A stretch of DNA of 64,000 bases from a virus, in IMG/VR virus record IMGVR_UViG_3300001041_000017, positions 1 to 64,000 of that record; one strand, given 5' to 3'. The position numbers were made by a program, and so were the translations under genes. Numbering within the stretch: position 1 is the first letter of the stretch; each line of letters begins with the position of its first letter. Of this stretch, positions 6,428 through 16,399 are shown one piece after another. The notes under the pieces were generated by a model. The model worked only from the letters and a program-made list of their open reading frames with translations. It had not been told where the DNA came from and did not search any database.

Positions 6428-7936
6428 TTGTCTGGATTAATACTTCCTCCTGGTGTCAAAGTAGAAAAACAGCATAAATCATATGTTGTAGATAGTGAAG
6501 GTGAAATTCAAGAAATTCAAGAGGTTAAGAAAAATAAAGTATTTAAGGCTGACAACAAAATGAAAATATTTGATGAGTCGGCCGAATCAACACAGCTTTT
6601 AGACGAATCTTGGAGGGATCGATATCTGACAGGTGAAGTTATAAGACCTCCCTATGATCCGTATAAGCTCAGACAGTTCTTAGAGGATTCTGTTTTCCAT
6701 CTACGTTCTGTTAAACAGAAAGCTATTGATGTTTGCTGTTTAGGATGGGACATACTCCCCATAGATCCTCTTCAACCAAAAGAGGGAACTAATTATAAAA
6801 CTCTAGTTGACTTTTTTACAGAAGCTAACCCAGATATAGAACTCGTAGAAGTTTTAGAAAATGCTTGGGTGGATTACGAATCAATAGGCTGGAAATGTAT
6901 TGAAATGACAAGAAATAAAGCAAAAAAACCATACGCTTTTTATCATGTCCCATCTTACACTATGAGAAAAGCAGTAAAAGATCATGTTCATTGGGGCTAC
7001 ATTCAGAGGCGTTTCAATAGTAAGGGTATCCTCATTGCAGAAAGACATTTTAAGAAACTTGGAGACATGGAAGAAAGAATAGATCCCAACACAGGTAAAC
7101 CTATGAACGAAATGATATGGATGGACAATTACAGCACATTAAACGACTGGTACGGGGTTCCAGAATGGATTCCTGCAATCGGAGCCATGATCGGCAACAA
7201 CGAAGCCAGGGATTATAACATAGCCTTTTTTGCAAACGGGGCTATTCCTCAGTACGCTATAATTATGGAGGGTGGGGAAGTAACACCTGAAGTAAGAAAT
7301 ATCATTAAGAAACATTTTAGAGATCTTAAGGGAACCCAAAATTCTCACAGAACTCTTATCCTGGAATGTCCTGAAGGTGGTAAGATTCATTTAATACCAT
7401 TAGCCGTTGAAGTCCGTGACGGACATTTCCGGCTCTATAGAAAAGATAATAGAGATGAGGTTCTAGTAGCTCATGGAATGCCCCCATATCGCATAGGGAT
7501 AGCTGAAACAGGTAGTCTAGGTAGTAACGTGAGCGAGAACGCTACAGTTGTTTATAAGAACTCTGTGGTAACTCCCAGGCAAGTTAAGTTAGAACATAGA
7601 CTAAAAAGATTAATAAAAAAATGTTTCGGAATATATGACTTCTATTTGAAGTTTGCCGAAATTGATATTGACGATAAGAAATTGAAAGCAGAAATAGACG
7701 AAATTGAATCCAAAGCAGCAAAGAATTGGGTAGATTCAAGAATTTATACTCCAAACGAAATAAGAAAACAAAGAGGCTCAGGACCTCTTCCCGGTGGAGA
7801 CGAATTTCCTAGTGATACTCCTCCTATTCAAAATGGTACTGAAAAGATTGATAATAAGGATGATCAAAATAAAGAGAAGAAAAAAGTAATCAAGAGAGGT
7901 TCTGAAGATTGGAACAAAAAATTCAACGTCAGCTAG
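6428..7936 (+). CDS. Portal protein
   Basis: This 502-aa protein matches the PBSX/P2-type portal family, the dodecameric ring through which DNA enters and leaves the head. Supporting segments are LRSVKQKAIDVCCLGWDI (about residue 95), a basic middle with FYHVPSYTMRKA, and HGMPPYRIGIAETGSLG near residue 350, which resembles the conserved PP-xxx-G region of this family. Position between terminase and MuF protein agrees. The C-terminus is a lysine-rich tail. The start is TTG at 6428 behind AAAGGATTGATATACA. Confidence 0.88.
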   Translation: MSGLILPPGVKVEKQHKSYVVDSEGEIQEIQEVKKNKVFKADNKMKIFDESAESTQLLDESWRDRYLTGEVIRPPYDPYKLRQFLEDSVFHLRSVKQKAIDVCCLGWDILPIDPLQPKEGTNYKTLVDFFTEANPDIELVEVLENAWVDYESIGWKCIEMTRNKAKKPYAFYHVPSYTMRKAVKDHVHWGYIQRRFNSKGILIAERHFKKLGDMEERIDPNTGKPMNEMIWMDNYSTLNDWYGVPEWIPAIGAMIGNNEARDYNIAFFANGAIPQYAIIMEGGEVTPEVRNIIKKHFRDLKGTQNSHRTLILECPEGGKIHLIPLAVEVRDGHFRLYRKDNRDEVLVAHGMPPYRIGIAETGSLGSNVSENATVVYKNSVVTPRQVKLEHRLKRLIKKCFGIYDFYLKFAEIDIDDKKLKAEIDEIESKAAKNWVDSRIYTPNEIRKQRGSGPLPGGDEFPSDTPPIQNGTEKIDNKDDQNKEKKKVIKRGSEDWNKKFNVS

Positions 7937-9930
7937 AAAACAGAATTTATAAGTTAAAAAATGAAATAATTAAAGTATTTCAGAAATGGCAAACAAATAT
8001 TATGACTTCATTTTGGGGATCAGATTTTGATGGTCTTATAATAAAATCATCTTCCGGCATACCTCAAGAATTAGAGGATAAATTAATAGCTATGGTTCCG
8101 GTAGAAGAATTAAATGAAGTTATAAGGGAATCTTTTAATCAAGGAATAAAAATAGAAACAATAAATCATTCAGTCAAATTTGATGATGGATTAATAGACT
8201 GGACTTTATACGATAAAAGAACTTCTAAATTTCTAGACAACTACACATTTAAGGCCAGTCAAAAAACTCTAGATCGGATAAATGGAGGAAATATTCTGGG
8301 ATTGATTAAAGATCAGAATGAAAAGGGTGGAGATATCAACGATATGATCCATTCCATCCATAAGTCTTTTCAGGAGTTTTCCGATTACGAGGCAGAAAGA
8401 ATAGCAAGAACTGAAACATTAAGAGCAAGAAACTTTGCTAGATTTATGTCTTTAAAAGAAGACTTTAATGTAGATAAAAAGACTTGGCAAACTCATATAG
8501 ACGGTAGACAAAGAAAATCACATGAAAAATTGCATCTGGAGACTGTTCCAATAGATGAACCGTTTCCTAATGGATTGATGTTTCCGGGAGATCCTTCGGG
8601 TATTCCAAGTGAAGTAATAAATTGTAGATGTAGTCTACTTTCTGGTCAAAGTCCTGATAAAATAAAAAGAAAAACAGATGATGAGGATTATGAGATAGAA
8701 GATCCTATGGAATCTATAAAGGAAGACCTTCCACAACACTATATAGATTATTCCCTAAAATATATGGAGAGGTTAGCTAGGAAGTTAGAAAAAGAAATGA
8801 TTGATAATGAAGAAATAAATAATTTATTAAATCAAAATATGAGTATTATGGCAAAACAAGCAGAAGAAACAATGAGAGAAATGGAAGTTGATCTATCAGG
8901 AAATGTTTTTGTTTTAGATACTAGAAATAGCTATGAAAACATTGTTTTTGGAAACATTAAAAATGTTAATCGGGAATTATCTTTGGTTTCAGAAATAACT
9001 CCAGAAATTATTTTAGCGGAGTCTAAAAACATAACCATTCCTGAATACTTCAAGATACCTGAAGAGGGTTATAAATATTATCCTTTGGTAAGTCAAAAAG
9101 AAATTCTTAGAGAAGTTTCAAGACTTCCTCAAGGGCCTAAAAGGTATAGAATAAAACAAACAGGGTTCAAGATACCTAATAAAACTATTATTGTTGATGA
9201 TGTTATTTATACAGCTTACGATTCCGAGATAGAAGATATCATCTATTCAGCAACAGAAATATTTGTTAAACAAGAACAAGAACATCTACCTGGTCTTACC
9301 GTTCAAGACGTTATAGATACGTTTTTTGACGGAGATAATAGGTTTGAATTTGATATAGTAACACCAGAAGAAAAAAGACAATTCTTAAAGCAATATTGTT
9401 ATAAGAATAAAATGTTAGCCGGATCTGTTAATTTTGAGATAGACCTGAAAGACATAGAAAATACTTTTGGTGGAGTAGAAGAAATATTGAATCTACCTAA
9501 TGATGATTTTAGAGAAATTTTCTTTAAGTCATTTAGCCCAAAATTTGATTTAGATGTTTCTGTAGAAGATAGTTTTTCAAATAAAACAATTAAGAAAATA
9601 TCTAATATGATCGATTGGGTGGAAGGTTATATTTTTGGCTCCGTATTAACTGCCCCAATAATAATTCACTATGTTAAAGAGGAAAGTTATTACGATTTAA
9701 TCAACAATATTATTTACTTGAATGATGAGTCGGATGAAGAAGATATTCTAAGATATATTGGATTCTACATTCAGAATACTAATTCAGGAATATTTAAAGA
9801 GTTATCTCAGAGTGATTTTATGGCAAGAATATTACCAAAATTACTTTCTGGTAAATCTATAAAAGAGTTATACAAAAATGACAAAGAATCATTTGAAAAA
9901 ATATTTTCAATTGTAAGGGGGAGTTTTTAA
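7909..9930 (+). CDS. MuF/SPP1 gp7-type minor head protein with long C-terminal extension
   Basis: Residues about 130-255 carry the MuF-like head morphogenesis domain: AERIARTETLRARNFARF, then TWQTHIDGRQRKSHEKLH and the terminal VINCRCSL signature. Such proteins sit at the portal and can enter the host with the DNA. The usual protein ends soon after this domain; here about 400 further residues follow (673 aa in all). They are acidic and largely unrecognised. A segment near 600-622 (NIIYLNDESDEEDILRYIGF) resembles the spacing of a zincin helix without the HExxH residues. The start is TTG at 7909, inside the end of the portal gene. Confidence 0.8.
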   Translation: MEQKIQRQLENRIYKLKNEIIKVFQKWQTNIMTSFWGSDFDGLIIKSSSGIPQELEDKLIAMVPVEELNEVIRESFNQGIKIETINHSVKFDDGLIDWTLYDKRTSKFLDNYTFKASQKTLDRINGGNILGLIKDQNEKGGDINDMIHSIHKSFQEFSDYEAERIARTETLRARNFARFMSLKEDFNVDKKTWQTHIDGRQRKSHEKLHLETVPIDEPFPNGLMFPGDPSGIPSEVINCRCSLLSGQSPDKIKRKTDDEDYEIEDPMESIKEDLPQHYIDYSLKYMERLARKLEKEMIDNEEINNLLNQNMSIMAKQAEETMREMEVDLSGNVFVLDTRNSYENIVFGNIKNVNRELSLVSEITPEIILAESKNITIPEYFKIPEEGYKYYPLVSQKEILREVSRLPQGPKRYRIKQTGFKIPNKTIIVDDVIYTAYDSEIEDIIYSATEIFVKQEQEHLPGLTVQDVIDTFFDGDNRFEFDIVTPEEKRQFLKQYCYKNKMLAGSVNFEIDLKDIENTFGGVEEILNLPNDDFREIFFKSFSPKFDLDVSVEDSFSNKTIKKISNMIDWVEGYIFGSVLTAPIIIHYVKEESYYDLINNIIYLNDESDEEDILRYIGFYIQNTNSGIFKELSQSDFMARILPKLLSGKSIKELYKNDKESFEKIFSIVRGSF

Positions 9931-10731: not shown

Positions 10732-11442
10732 ATGGCTAGTTATGTAGAACTAATTCTCGATGTTACAGGACCGGCAGGAGTTACCGCTACGCTTGAGGGT
10801 GGGGCTAATTTTACAACGGGTCAATTGGTTGACTGTGCAATCGCTACGTCCGATGCTGATGCTACGGGATATAAAGTTAAAATCTGGGGTGACGTTGACG
10901 AGACCGAAAATCCCAACATTCAGACCGACGAAGCTGATGCTATTTACTTCAGTCCTACTTGGGATGTTAATGAAGTAACACAGCAAGTAAAACTGGTCTC
11001 TGGTGACGGTCTCAAGACTATTTATGTAAAGATCATGGATACCGTTGATAACGTGTCTAGTTCAGCAAATGACACTATTACCTTGGATGAAACAAGTCCG
11101 GCTATTACTACTGGGGATCCTAACGTGCCGAGGATTAGTAATAAGACAGGCAAAAGAACTGCCGTATTCACATTCCAAGCGGATACCGCTTTTGACGAAT
11201 ACGTAGTTATGGTGGTTCCGACTACTGGTTCTGTGTATGCCGATGGAACCGTTATTGGTACTACAAACGGTTCTGCTAATACTTCTGGTAATGCTGGAGA
11301 ATATCCGGCCACAACTCCTATTTCTGTTACTGTCGATTATGATGATCTTATCGCTGCCGGGGCAGCTTCCGGAGAAACCCCCAACATCGTTAAAGTGTTT
11401 GTCAAAGAGCATTCCGATGTTGAAGAATGGACTACTATCTAG
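10732..11442 (+). CDS. Ig-like structural protein, candidate head decoration protein (236 aa)
   Basis: Two beta-sandwich units can be seen: about residues 3-120 (starting SYVELILDVTGPAG, ending in NDTITLDETSP) and 121-236 (ending NIVKVFVKEHSDVEEWT). The first opens like both repeats of the protein at 11819, and the second resembles the protein at 11521. The gene has a strong ribosome binding site (AAAAAAGGGAGGG), its own terminator and more G- and C-ending codons than its neighbours, as in the capsid and tail tube genes. This suggests abundant expression. A decoration role is inferred, not shown. Confidence 0.65.
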   Translation: MASYVELILDVTGPAGVTATLEGGANFTTGQLVDCAIATSDADATGYKVKIWGDVDETENPNIQTDEADAIYFSPTWDVNEVTQQVKLVSGDGLKTIYVKIMDTVDNVSSSANDTITLDETSPAITTGDPNVPRISNKTGKRTAVFTFQADTAFDEYVVMVVPTTGSVYADGTVIGTTNGSANTSGNAGEYPATTPISVTVDYDDLIAAGAASGETPNIVKVFVKEHSDVEEWTTI

Positions 11443-11445
11443 TTT

Positions 11446-11483
11446 AAAAAAGAGGAGATGCTTTTATAGGTCTCCTCTTTTTT
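11446..11483 (+). terminator. Rho-independent terminator
   Basis: AAAAAGAGGAGA pairs with TCTCCTCTTTTT around a 12-nt loop, with the A-tract and T-tract extending the stem. It lies directly behind the putative decoration gene. Confidence 0.85.
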
Positions 11484-11520
11484 ATTATGTAATTTTAATA
11501 TAAAGATTGGAGTTGAGAAT

Positions 11521-11826
11521 ATGTCTAATCCAATTATAAATATAATATCAAGATCTGTTCCTGTTATCTCCCGAAAGGAAGGATCTAATTCTTGCACAAT
11601 AGTTTTTACTTCAGATCAAAATCTAACAGAATGGGAAGCTAGAGCAGACGGAACCGGTCCGGGAACAGGTTTACTTGTAGGGAGTGGAACTTCTTTAACA
11701 GCAGAAACAGAACAATCTTTTTATGTTGATTCTACAGAACTGGATACAGAAACATATATAAATAAAACCTATAGAATTAATGTTTATGGAAAGAATTCAA
11801 GCGGAGAATGGTCTTTGTATGAATAG
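11521..11826 (+). CDS. Ig-like single-domain protein (101 aa)
   Basis: The ATG at 11521 follows TTGGAGTTGAGAAT. The product resembles the second unit of the 236-aa protein at 10732: both have a PVIS/PRIS start, a TIVFTSDQN/TAVFTFQAD strand, a Gly-Thr-rich loop, and an ending with a hydrophobic strand then SGEW or VEEW. It is therefore a likely partial duplicate. It overlaps the next gene by 8 nt. Confidence 0.65.
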   Translation: MSNPIINIISRSVPVISRKEGSNSCTIVFTSDQNLTEWEARADGTGPGTGLLVGSGTSLTAETEQSFYVDSTELDTETYINKTYRINVYGKNSSGEWSLYE

Positions 11827-12628
11827 TTGGATTGAATTAATTATTGATATTTCTAATCCAAATATTGAAGTAGACTATCCATCGGTAATTTATCAAGGAG
11901 ATGTTGTATCTCTTAGAATTGTGTCAGATAAAATTTTGGATACTGAATTTCAAAACATTTATTTGATAGACCTATTAGGAGAGAAAAATATTCTCCTTTT
12001 TAATTTCATGGATGAAAATAATTTAACCTTAGAACTAGATACAACAAATATACCTACGGGAATAATTCAATTATTTATTTCCCTAAGAGACGATCTTCAT
12101 AATCCTAGAATTATTGAGAAAGATATAAGAATCTATCCTGAAAATTATTTCAATAAAAGTAGTTGGATTGAGTTAGTTTTGGATGTTTCAAATCCAAACT
12201 TAAGTATAGGGTTTCCTATAGAAATTTATCAAGAAGACATTATTTCACTAACAATAAATTCAGATAAAATTTTGGATACGGAATTTCAAAACATTTATCT
12301 GGTTGATAGGTTAGGCGAAAAACATGATCTTCTTTTTTCTTTTGTAGATGAGAAAAGGTTAACTTTAGAATTAGACACAAGAAATATTTCTCCTGGAACA
12401 GCTATTCTTCATGTCGAATTAAGAGATGATTTATATAACACCAGGATAGTAGAAACATCTATGAAAATAAATTTCAGACCTAAAGATATTATTTATTTCT
12501 TTGATACATTAAGAAAGATTTATCAGCCAATAGAAACACGGTTTGATTTAGAAAGATCCTTTAAGCAATTAAATTTTGTTATTTCAGAAATCAAACCAAC
12601 GGTGAAAATTAAGGAGATGATTTTTTGA
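11819..12628 (+). CDS. Protein with two tandem Ig-like repeats (269 aa)
   Basis: Two repeats of about 112 residues each start with SWIELIIDISNPN and SWIELVLDVSNPN, and share SDKILDTEFQNIYL exactly. At the DNA level the shared segments (about 11924-11962 and 12260-12298) are nearly identical, so the duplication is recent. A C-terminal tail of about 45 residues follows. The start chosen is ATG 11819, overlapping the preceding stop; earlier in-frame ATGs lie inside the upstream gene. Likely a head-associated surface protein (inference). Confidence 0.65.
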   Translation: MNSWIELIIDISNPNIEVDYPSVIYQGDVVSLRIVSDKILDTEFQNIYLIDLLGEKNILLFNFMDENNLTLELDTTNIPTGIIQLFISLRDDLHNPRIIEKDIRIYPENYFNKSSWIELVLDVSNPNLSIGFPIEIYQEDIISLTINSDKILDTEFQNIYLVDRLGEKHDLLFSFVDEKRLTLELDTRNISPGTAILHVELRDDLYNTRIVETSMKINFRPKDIIYFFDTLRKIYQPIETRFDLERSFKQLNFVISEIKPTVKIKEMIF

Positions 12629-13602
12629 AATATGTAATAAGAAAAGAAGAAAATATTTTATCTAATTTGGATCAAGCAAATACTGTGATATCTCAATTAT
12701 CAGAAGATGATATTAACCTTCTAGGTCCAAGATGGTTTTATGACGAAGCTCAGTTGAGAATTATTTATGTAGAAGATGATATTCCTGTAGGATTTATAGA
12801 AACAAGAATCATAGGGAAAAGATGTTATCTAAATATTGCTGTTTTGTCCGATCATAGAAACAAAGGAATTTCGGATGCTTTAATTTCTGGAATGAAAGAA
12901 TTGATAATTCAAGATTATCCAGATGTTAATAAAATTTTCTACATAACAAAATCAGATAATCAGGCATCTATAAATTTAGCAACAAGAACGGGTTTTATAG
13001 ATTCAGGAAGTAAGGACGGATACACCAGATACTCTTTTGTTTTAAAAGAAGATTACTCTATAGAGAAAGTAGATGATGATTTTATGGTTTATAGTGAAGT
13101 CAAAAAAAGTGTAACTCAAACCGACTTTTCATTACAAATGAATATTTTTAAAGTTGATGAAATGAAAGGAATTGTTTATGGAAAAGCTTTAATTCCAAAC
13201 TATGTAGATTCTCAATCTGATATTTGTACTCCAGAAGAGGTCGAAAAAATAGCTCATGGTTTTATGATCGGATTACAAATGCCGGTAGTTCAAAAAAGCC
13301 AGCTTGGAGATATGCACGAAAACTTTGGGGAAAACCCTTGGGAAATAGGATTAGTATTAGAGTCTTATATTTCTCCCGATGATGGAAGTTGGGTTCTTGT
13401 AACAAAACCTAACGAAGTTATTTTAGAGAAAATTAAAAAACTAGAAATAACAGGATACTCAATTGGTGGAGTTGGTTTCAGAACTCCATTAGAAATTGAC
13501 GATGAAAATTTAGTTGAAAAAGTAGAAAAAAACAAAGCATTAAGTTCAGAAATTACTCAAGAAATATCTGATATATACAAACAACTAACAAATAACAAAT
13601 AA
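12625..13602 (+). CDS. GNAT acetyltransferase fused to XkdF-type prohead protease
   Basis: Residues about 1-140 form a GNAT domain: CYLNIAVLSDHRNKGISDAL (67-86) is the acetyl-CoA binding motif A, and SDNQASINLATRTGF (110-124) is motif B. Residues about 165-290 match the XkdF family of putative phage serine proteases: GIVYGKALIPNYVDSQSD, a catalytic-type GDMHENF (H231) and TGYSIGG (S279). The protease is expected to mature the prohead by cutting scaffold. Its position before scaffold and capsid genes fits. The GNAT fusion is unusual. The TTG start at 12625 overlaps the preceding stop behind AAGGAGATGA. Confidence 0.8.
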   Translation: MKYVIRKEENILSNLDQANTVISQLSEDDINLLGPRWFYDEAQLRIIYVEDDIPVGFIETRIIGKRCYLNIAVLSDHRNKGISDALISGMKELIIQDYPDVNKIFYITKSDNQASINLATRTGFIDSGSKDGYTRYSFVLKEDYSIEKVDDDFMVYSEVKKSVTQTDFSLQMNIFKVDEMKGIVYGKALIPNYVDSQSDICTPEEVEKIAHGFMIGLQMPVVQKSQLGDMHENFGENPWEIGLVLESYISPDDGSWVLVTKPNEVILEKIKKLEITGYSIGGVGFRTPLEIDDENLVEKVEKNKALSSEITQEISDIYKQLTNNK

Positions 13603-13644: not shown

Positions 13645-14769
13645 TTGGCGAAAACTAAAGTAAATCTCCTTCACGACACTCAAGTTAATGAAGTTTCTTA
13701 TGTCGATAAAGGAGCAATTGGGCAAAAGTTTTACTTTATGAAAAGAGATACTTCTGCCGAACCGGAAACTCAAATTCCTGAAAAGCAAACTACTATCCAA
13801 AAAATTATTTCTTCGATTACTAAATCCTTCAAAGGTAAAGTTGAGAAGAGTGACGGTTTTACCGATTTCACGGCTGCCATAAGTTACGAAGTTAACAATG
13901 ATAAACTTTGGGATGCTTATTGGGCTATAAGAGATGTTATTTTTAACATCATTGGTGATGAAAATATAACAGATAAAAGTTTTGCTATCGGTAATGCGTG
14001 TGATCAGTTTAAGAATTATGTTATTTCTCTGGTTAGTCAATTCACTGTAGCCAAACGCCAGGAAATTGTTAAAAAGTATCAGGAAGAAAACACTACTGTA
14101 GATGATGCTTTCGGAGTTTTCATTGAGGATCTAGTTAACATCTCAAAAAGTTCACAAACTCCGGAAACTGATATTGGTTCTGCCGTTTTAAACTTCAAAA
14201 ATCAAATGACTTCGGTATTGAGTGATAATGTTCAAAAGGCAGGTAAGAAAGTTTCTTCTGCCAGATTGGACACCTTAAAGGTTTTATCTAGTCAATTGAA
14301 TGACTTTATTGCGGATGCGGAATCTGTTCCGGCTGATACAGGAGATGGTTCCGGTGAGGGTGTTTCAAAAAACGATAATGGTAAGGGGGAAGATAACGAG
14401 ATGAAACCTGAAGATTTAACTGCGGTTCTTAAAGGTGTTTTGGAACCTCTTTCTCAAAAGATGGATGAGGTAACAAAACGTCTTGAAGATGTTGAAAAGA
14501 AAAAGACAGAAGAATCCCCTTCTGCTGGAGCAACTACTGAAACTGTAGTCAAAACAGCAGAACCGGTCCAAAAAACTGAGGCAGAACTTATTACTGAAGC
14601 TATTCAGAAAGCTATGGAACCGTTAACTACAAAAATCGAAGAAGTTACCAAACGCCTTGAAACCGTTGAAAAAATGGAAGCAAATCCTCCGGCAGCTGCT
14701 ACTGGCTCCGAGGGAACTCCTGATCCGGTAACTAAAAGCGGTAAGAAGTGGCCTAGTTTTTCCGCTTAA
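13645..14769 (+). CDS. Scaffold-like protein with duplicated coiled coil (374 aa)
   Basis: The N-terminus, VNEVSYVDKGAIGQKF (residues about 14-29), resembles the EVSLVD-x-GA segment found with XkdF proteins. The middle is helical. The C-terminal third has two repeats of about 30 residues, VLEPLSQKMDEVTKRLEDVE and AMEPLTTKIEEVTKRLETVE, separated by low-complexity Ala/Thr/Glu linkers. Lying between protease and major capsid protein, it is probably the scaffold. Start TTG 13645 behind GAGGAGGTG. Confidence 0.7.
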   Translation: MAKTKVNLLHDTQVNEVSYVDKGAIGQKFYFMKRDTSAEPETQIPEKQTTIQKIISSITKSFKGKVEKSDGFTDFTAAISYEVNNDKLWDAYWAIRDVIFNIIGDENITDKSFAIGNACDQFKNYVISLVSQFTVAKRQEIVKKYQEENTTVDDAFGVFIEDLVNISKSSQTPETDIGSAVLNFKNQMTSVLSDNVQKAGKKVSSARLDTLKVLSSQLNDFIADAESVPADTGDGSGEGVSKNDNGKGEDNEMKPEDLTAVLKGVLEPLSQKMDEVTKRLEDVEKKKTEESPSAGATTETVVKTAEPVQKTEAELITEAIQKAMEPLTTKIEEVTKRLETVEKMEANPPAAATGSEGTPDPVTKSGKKWPSFSA

Positions 14770-14844: not shown

Positions 14845-16044
14845 TTGGCTAAGTCTGTTCAACAGCTTATAAACAAAGGAGTTGTTACTAGCGGATCTTT
14901 TACAGGTTCCATTGGTATGACTCACGATGAAGCAAATACTTTTATTGATTATGTGGTAGATGAAAGCTGGTTAAAAGGTAACGTCCGGCTAGAACGGATG
15001 TCTGCTGCTACTAAAAAGATTGACAAGCTTGATATCGGTGGTCGTGTTTTAGTTCCTGCTACTGCTGCTCAAGATCCTGGTAACACTGTAGGTATCGAAA
15101 CCAGTCAAATTGAATTAGTCGCAAGAGAAATGATCGCCATTGCTGAAATCGGAGATGATTCCCTAGAGGATAACATCGAAGGTGATGCTTTTGTAGATCA
15201 CTTGATGCGCATGGTTGCAGCTAAAATTGGTAACGAACTTGAAGAAGCGTACCTAATGGGTAAGGCTTTACTTCCTGGTCAGATGAATACTGCTACTCAT
15301 ATCAATCAACTCTTCGAAGGTTGGTATCAAAGAAGCCTTGCAGGTGCTCACATTTTTGATTGTTCTACTTCCGATACACGGTTTATTGACAGACCTAAAC
15401 TTTCGAAAGCATTAAAACTTCTGCCGACTAAGTATCGCCGGAATAAGGCGAATATGAGGTACTTAATGGCCGATGATCTGAGTCAGGATTACAATGACTA
15501 TCTGGCTGATAGCAGGGGAACACCTCTGGGTGATAACTTTGTCATGGGTACGGCCCAAATGTCTTACAGTAATATAAGACTCCAATCCATGTCTCTGTTA
15601 CCGACTGAAATGCCAGTAGCTAAAACTGGTGGTGTTAGTACCAAAATGACATCCGATGTACCTGCAAAATCTATGTCATTCCAAGTGGTTTCTGTTACTG
15701 GTATTACCGCTGGACAAGAATTAGTTCTTGGGTTGAATACCCCTTATGAAGAAAAAGTTATGGTTTCTGCGGTAGATGCTGATACCAAAACTGTTACCAT
15801 TAGATCTTTGTTGGCGTTTAAGCATTACGCCGGAAGTGATATTCAGGAATGTACTTCTGACGGAACCTTTGCTATGTTAACTGATTACCGAAATCTTATC
15901 TGTGGTATTCATCGTGATATTCGGTTTGAAACCGAGAGACATCCCAGAAAGCGTTCTACTTCTTTCGTGTTTACTCTCCGGGCAGATGTTCAAATGGAGA
16001 ATCCTGAAGCCGTTGTCCTTTTGACCAATCTTCAGGTGAAGTAG
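14845..16044 (+). CDS. Major capsid protein
   Basis: This 399-aa protein has features of an HK97-fold capsid protein: an N-terminal helical segment, a long E-loop region with KIDKLDIGGRVL (about 65-80), IGDDSLEDNIEG (about 110-122), and a P-domain with ANMRYLMADDLSQDYNDYL. Near residues 265-330 it seems to carry a small inserted beta domain (FQVVSVTGITAGQELVLG), while the end (FETERHPRKRSTSFVFTLRADVQMENPEAV) is typical of family C-termini. Codons are biased as in highly expressed genes. Start TTG 14845 behind AGGGAGGG. Confidence 0.88.
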   Translation: MAKSVQQLINKGVVTSGSFTGSIGMTHDEANTFIDYVVDESWLKGNVRLERMSAATKKIDKLDIGGRVLVPATAAQDPGNTVGIETSQIELVAREMIAIAEIGDDSLEDNIEGDAFVDHLMRMVAAKIGNELEEAYLMGKALLPGQMNTATHINQLFEGWYQRSLAGAHIFDCSTSDTRFIDRPKLSKALKLLPTKYRRNKANMRYLMADDLSQDYNDYLADSRGTPLGDNFVMGTAQMSYSNIRLQSMSLLPTEMPVAKTGGVSTKMTSDVPAKSMSFQVVSVTGITAGQELVLGLNTPYEEKVMVSAVDADTKTVTIRSLLAFKHYAGSDIQECTSDGTFAMLTDYRNLICGIHRDIRFETERHPRKRSTSFVFTLRADVQMENPEAVVLLTNLQVK

Positions 16045-16045
16045 T

Positions 16046-16399
16046 ATGGAAAAACAGCTAAGTAAAAATTTCAATGAATCAGAATTTGTATGCAAATGTG
16101 GCTGCGGAACCGTCCATGTAAATCCTAATCTTATCTCTAAACTTCAAAAACTTAGAGATATGGTTGGGAAACCTATAACTATTGTTTCTGGTTATAGGTG
16201 TGCAGCTCATAACGCTGCTGTAGGTGGGGTTCCGAGAAGTCAACATAAACTTGGTAATGCTGCCGATATATCTATATCAGGAATGTCTCCTGCTGAAGTC
16301 GCTAAACTGGCTGAAAAGGTTGGGTTTAACGGTATCGGGAGATATTCTACATTCACTCACGTTGATGTTAGAGGTTATAGATCTAGGTGGAATGGTTAG
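16046..16399 (+). CDS. Peptidase M15 domain protein (possible endolysin)
   Basis: This 117-aa protein is a complete peptidase M15 domain: FNESEFVCKCGC at the start, VSGYRCAAHNAAVGG, zinc ligands in SQHKLGNAADI (H and D) and THVDVRG near the end. Such enzymes cut the peptide stem of peptidoglycan. It lies between capsid and connector genes, far from the holin genes at 48 kb. It resembles the C-terminal domain of the tail hydrolase at 26721. It could be the endolysin or a virion-associated enzyme. The ATG at 16046 follows the capsid stop by 1 nt, with AGGTGA inside the capsid gene end. Confidence 0.85.
   Translation: MEKQLSKNFNESEFVCKCGCGTVHVNPNLISKLQKLRDMVGKPITIVSGYRCAAHNAAVGGVPRSQHKLGNAADISISGMSPAEVAKLAEKVGFNGIGRYSTFTHVDVRGYRSRWNG

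Follow-up and report, generated by a model that had tools for sequence, protein, structure and literature searches.

Why would a phage join a GNAT domain to the protease of its own head? The question is raised by one gene in the window, the 64,000-nt stretch of viral DNA analysed here, taken from a virus record of 80,057 bases. A sequence-only reading of this gene had offered three answers, i.e., that the GNAT modifies capsid or scaffold, that it modifies host proteins, or that it is packaged as cargo and freed by cleavage. Here, we suggest, with a probability of about one half, that the GNAT is a mobile acetyltransferase effector that reaches virions through a tether to proteins of the head interior and is then released by the head protease, and that it probably acts on the next host cell.

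Results

The GNAT and the protease share one intact frame

The fusion gene is a single uninterrupted frame (Table 1), and its TTG start shares 4 bases with the end of the upstream ORF (stop TGA at 12626–12628). Pfam detects both domains, with Acetyltransf_1 (PF00583) at residues 37–124 (E 6e-9; 36.6 bits against a cut-off of 20.7) and Peptidase_S78_2 at 68.3 bits against a cut-off of 24. The PHROGs matches are to head maturation protease and, more weakly, to acetyltransferase. The same frame is present in two other IMG/VR contigs (L002 and L003) with 2 nucleotide differences in 978, one of which causes L273Q. Because two further assemblies share the frame with so few differences, a frameshift or chimera is very unlikely, and sequencing error, frameshift and chimera were all rejected as the origin of the fusion. 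Thus, the claim that a GNAT and an XkdF-type protease lie in one frame is borne out by the intact ORF, the two Pfam domains and three assemblies, and the error joining two genes that the sequence-only reading had allowed for was looked for and not found.

Table 1. Coordinates of the fusion gene, its parts and the neighbouring head genes in the window
Feature	Position	Strand	Basis or remark
Portal of the window virus, without GNAT extension	6428..7936	+	
MuF-type minor head protein with ~400 aa C-terminal extension	7909..9930	+	
RBS AAGGAG	12611..12616	+	8 bases 5' of the TTG start; from sequence
Fusion gene: N-terminal GNAT, linker, C-terminal XkdF/S78_2 prohead protease	12625..13602	+	325 aa; TTG start
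GNAT domain, aa 11–141, head-associated GNAT family	12655..13047	+	PF00583; family alignment; model; PDB GNAT folds
GNAT motif A AVLSDHRNKGISDAL, aa 72–86; acetyl-CoA loop R78-x-x-G81-x-S83	12838..12882	+	
Ala119, at the position of RimI general-acid Tyr115	12979..12981	+	Ala in all family members
Linker between domains, aa 142–172	13048..13140	+	domain boundaries; low model confidence at aa 144–149
Peptidase_S78_2 (XkdF) domain, aa 173–284	13141..13476	+	PF14550, E 8e-19
Catalytic His231	13315..13317	+	invariant in 36/36 aligned XkdF domains
Glu246, probable third active-site residue	13360..13362	+	E in 32, Q in 4 of 36
Catalytic Ser279	13459..13461	+	invariant in 36/36 aligned XkdF domains
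Separate scaffold gene	13645..14769	+	phrog_3017 scaffold part, E 3e-21, profile positions 163–366
Major capsid protein	14845..16044	+	phrog_1623, E 1.5e-66

The protease half has an intact active site and lies among head genes

H231 and S279, which the sequence-only reading had named for the protease, hold as active-site residues: both are present and do not vary across the aligned XkdF domains. The GNAT and protease domains were modelled separately, a mixed alignment having placed GNAT-only rows on the protease, and rows from the phage collection were left out of one fold-input alignment. The best PDB match of the protease model is the T4 gp21 prohead protease, at modest scores (probability 0.82–0.96 and TM-score ~0.5, but E 0.15).

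The protease lies in the head gene cluster, ahead of the scaffold and capsid genes. With other XkdF/Peptidase_S78_2 proteases (Bacillus PBSX XkdF, Lactococcus ul36-type), it shares the catalytic domain and the gene slot between portal and capsid; however, in those proteins the N-terminus is short and the scaffold is fused at the C-terminus, whereas the window protein has a GNAT at the N-terminus and its scaffold is a separate gene. The scaffold gene begins with VNEVSYVDKGA, a motif that precedes the protease in Bacillus XkdF proteins, and the XkdF polyprotein thus seems to have been rearranged into two genes in the window virus.

In a close relative of the window virus (L013; capsid 46% and protease about 50% identical), the protease bears no GNAT. 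Just upstream of this unfused protease, L013 carries an ORF (L013:1546–2391) for a NUDIX hydrolase with a long extension at its C-terminus, at roughly the position of the GNAT in the window virus. Among the other neighbours, the C-terminal extension of the window MuF protein has no Pfam match, and its end, DILRYIGFYIQ, resembles by eye a degenerate zincin HExxH region; the MuF protein of L014 has a sub-threshold ART-PolyVal match. A run of repeated Ig-like ORFs (10732–12628; phrog_10898, phrog_18400) lies between the MuF gene and the protease, and the last of them (11780–12628) contains two similar repeats. Immediately 3' of the capsid gene, a small ORF (16046–16399) resembles by eye an M15-type peptidase (SGYRC...SQHKLGNAADI). 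The terminase has weak matches only, to haloarchaeal viruses, and the 64,000 nt hold no tRNA genes.

Relatives of the GNAT are fused to portals

Viral contigs were scanned with a GNAT-only alignment that contained no neighbour information. Of the 10 relatives recovered, 2 are the window's own virus and the other 8 contigs, which represent seven viruses (L336 and L338 are identical in sequence and were counted as one), are all portal C-terminal fusions. These portal-fused GNATs are 37–46% identical to the window GNAT over ~127 residues. In the five scanned with Pfam, a lambda-type (PF05136) or HK97-type (PF04860) portal and the GNAT were confirmed in one polypeptide; in the five scanned for downstream genes, the next gene encodes a ClpP-type protease (three) or an S78 prohead protease (two). 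The portal bodies fall into four lineages in two Pfam families (L335/L336/L339; L337; L340; L341/L342), each with a head protease gene next to it. Cultured relatives of these portals, in phage Lily (519 aa) and Butyrivibrio virus Arian (397 aa), stop at about the start of the GNAT extension and are followed by their own protease gene; some Bacillota phages have portals related to those of the portal-GNAT phages.

Two lines of evidence bear on the history of the module. First, the GNATs of L335 and L337 are 90% identical and sisters in the tree (support 99/96) while their portals have no detectable similarity, which indicates that the GNAT module has moved between portals. Second, over 94 codons, these two GNATs differ by 47 synonymous and 9 amino-acid changes. 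Synonymous sites are saturated and amino acids are kept; thus, the portal-fused members, on which selection was measured, are under strong purifying selection, and the GNAT part does not look like an obvious relic. In a tree with 56 other (cellular) GNATs, the eight GNATs group as a single clade (support 97/95). The window GNAT sits on a long branch and is the most diverged copy, keeping 31 of the 49 residues that are invariant among portal-fused members. Searches of 50,697 phage records, 72,556 plasmids and ~900 bacterial genomes gave generic GNATs only and no close member of the family. L003, L339 and L342, three different viruses with the GNAT family, share one metagenome number (3300025000), a hint that the module is exchanged locally.

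The GNAT fold and acetyl-CoA loop are kept while RimI-type catalytic residues are absent

Modelled with AlphaFold2 (mean pLDDT 82.7), the GNAT part resembles hundreds of GNATs of solved structure, e.g., PA4794, SpeG, RimI and Pat. The acetyl-CoA loop, R78-N-K-G81-I-S83, fits [QR]-x-x-G-x-[GA] except at the last position, which is Ser in the window and Ala in relatives. The positions of RimI Glu103 and Tyr115, which we take to be the catalytic residues based on the established numbering and roles in RimI, are Ile107 and Ala119 in the window GNAT and Ile/Val and Ala in all relatives. Normal acetyl transfer is therefore not assured, and the GNAT is best described as a putative acetyltransferase. 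Because these residues are absent from the whole family, the loss appears to be a family trait rather than decay of the window copy. The sequence-only reading had described motifs A and B as intact and had named motif loss in relatives as a sign of decay. Motif A is indeed intact, while motif B lacks the usual GNAT tyrosine throughout the family; in the portal-fused members, purifying selection and the conserved acetyl-CoA loop argue against decay.

We consider it unlikely that the GNAT is a non-catalytic fold kept for binding, whether for acetyl-CoA sensing, for peptide or DNA binding or as internal-core filler, in analogy to GNAT-fold internal virion proteins. Such a role would account for the missing RimI-type residues, and among the BFVD structural neighbours of the GNAT model, two are named internal virion protein A and another is a DUF2824 protein. 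However, all members keep the acetyl-CoA loop R-x-x-G-x-[A/S], other residues serve in some active GNATs, and swapping between unrelated portals would be unusual for a structural part.

Two known types of GNAT were considered and rejected. The window GNAT shares with RimI (ribosomal protein S18 alanine acetyltransferase) the fold and a weak match to the subfamily profile; it is not an orthologue, scoring 22 bits against a cut-off of 86.4 for TIGR01575 (E 1e-4) and lacking both catalytic residues. A GNAT toxin-antitoxin system (AtaT/TacT) was rejected as the adjacent genes are the Ig-like ORF and the scaffold gene, neither being a DUF1778 ribbon-helix-helix antitoxin gene, and the Pfam scan gave no antitoxin family. 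A second GNAT was not detectable in the 80,057-base record.

XkdF proteases often carry other enzymes at the N-terminus

Scans of viral and bacterial contigs yielded 315 XkdF ORFs, 86 of which have at least 100 residues ahead of the protease, some of these lengths possibly inflated by mechanical ORF starts. Among 50 long XkdF ORFs, Pfam found D12 adenine methylase in 13, ATP DNA ligase in 8 and 2H-type phosphoesterase in 5 (2'-5' RNA ligase in 3 and LigT phosphoesterase in 2), together with C5 cytosine methylase, LigD 3'-phosphoesterase, inorganic pyrophosphatase and others, and no GNAT. In ten XkdF ORFs scanned singly, the protease is C-terminal of the enzyme domains. Thus, XkdF proteases of environmental phages often carry N-terminal enzyme domains, and head proteases are a common carrier of DNA-acting enzymes. 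The search for the domain pair that the sequence-only reading had proposed recovered it in the three assemblies of the window's virus and in no other of the 315 ORFs.

Four XkdF polyproteins of 1,100–1,800 aa (L116, L147, L151 and L299) combine a DNA methylase and/or an ATP DNA ligase with a C-terminal XkdF domain, and one of them also has a 2'-5' RNA ligase domain. Among the long XkdF proteins, one has a match to LAGLIDADG_2 and one has a match to an intein splicing domain, which points to a probable intein in an XkdF polyprotein.

These data also bear on whether the GNAT could act in head assembly. Held at the portal/scaffold/protease initiation complex, it would then tune assembly or packaging by acetylating a phage head protein, the scaffold, the terminase or a chaperone of the host. 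Portal and protease are both part of the assembly initiation complex, cytoplasmic acetyl-CoA is at hand at this stage, and the tether would guarantee co-localisation. However, these portals and this protease have close relatives that assemble with no GNAT, and the remaining enzymes of the XkdF slot target nucleic acids, which fits delivery or DNA protection better. We therefore regard an assembly role as improbable, and nothing supports specifically the acetylation of capsid or scaffold considered in the sequence-only reading. That the fusion in the window's virus is an accident, neutral or in decay is very improbable: although only one protease-fused lineage is known and its GNAT is strongly diverged, three assemblies have the frame intact, the domain retains motif A and a confidently modelled GNAT fold, and tethering to a head protein recurs in four portal lineages, so that the placement is no one-off accident.

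Discussion

The portal C-terminus, as seen in established structures, and the prohead protease both face the interior of the procapsid. The common factor of the two tethers is thus delivery to the inside of the head, beside a protease able to free the module. We suggest that the GNAT enters virions as an effector by being tethered to an invariable component of the procapsid interior, i.e., to the N-terminus of the XkdF prohead protease in the window virus and to the portal C-terminus elsewhere. At maturation, the linker, which is the presumed site of proteolytic release, would most likely be cut by the head protease, in cis in the window fusion and by the adjoining ClpP-type or S78 protease in the portal versions. 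The product would be a free GNAT of ~16 kDa that is kept in the virion with the DNA, is ejected with it and, early in infection, acetylates a protein of the host or part of a defence system.

Several observations support this effector role. First, all eight relatives outside the window's virus in the context-blind scan are portal C-terminal fusions. Second, other enzymes share the N-terminal XkdF slot, and polyvalent proteins share this layout as described in PMC5512222. Against the effector role, a GNAT left uncut on its portal could not exit the virion, only a single protease-fused lineage was found, and the equivalents of RimI Glu103 and Tyr115 are missing. Among the options of the sequence-only reading, cargo freed by cleavage is the best supported, as seven other viruses have the GNAT family on the portal, likewise a protein of the head interior, and XkdF proteases elsewhere carry different enzymes where the window protein has its GNAT. 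More tentatively, the GNATs may represent an undescribed acetyltransferase clade that occurs nowhere but on proteins of the head interior. It would be a portable tag that switches between the C-terminus of portals and the N-terminus of the prohead protease in unrelated phages, and would provide a general route for effector delivery with the DNA.

One enzyme family with two loading sites, portal and head protease, offers a testable route by which a phage-borne protein-modifying enzyme could reach a new cell. Because XkdF commonly tows DNA methylases, ligases and phosphoesterases, head proteases are worth examining as cargo adaptors. Should the GNAT prove active, its target in the host can be sought directly by experiment.

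Comparison with known systems

MuF polymorphic toxins and fusions (SPP1 gp7/Mu gp30 type) likewise tether an enzyme to a minor head protein for entry into the virion; however, their enzyme is at the MuF C-terminus, whereas the GNAT carriers are protease and portal. T4 Alt is an injected ADP-ribosyltransferase, and we know of no head-protein fusion of Alt, phiKMV Rac or AcrVA5. All three are models for the action of phage-delivered or early enzymes on host or defence proteins, Rac being a GNAT that acts on the alpha subunit of host RNA polymerase (PMC7552054) and AcrVA5 a GNAT anti-CRISPR that acts on Cas12a (PMC9114340).

Another parallel is with the polyvalent proteins of phages and conjugative elements (Iyer 2017, PMC5512222). 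As described there, their assemblin-like assembly peptidase is always C-terminal, their domains include GNATs, 2H, pyrophosphatase and methylases, and enzyme fusions to MuF and portal are described. A search of open-licence papers found no description of a GNAT fused to a prohead protease or portal. The sequence-only reading, which named no described role for such fusions, agrees with this search for the domain pair but not with the general theme, which PMC5512222 covers; enzymes fused to head proteins and polyvalent proteins are already known, and a GNAT on a prohead protease or portal is a variant for which the open-licence literature gave no description. The window protein differs from the polyvalent proteins by having only two domains, an XkdF/S78_2 peptidase and a GNAT from a head-restricted clade found on portal or protease, a clade that may coincide with one of the two GNAT families of PMC5512222. 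The placement of XkdF in the assemblin-like superfamily would rest on the weak gp21 fold match. With its two domains including an effector-type enzyme, its C-terminal assembly peptidase and its location among late virion head genes, the window protein fits the polyvalent plan, with the GNAT as the towed enzyme.
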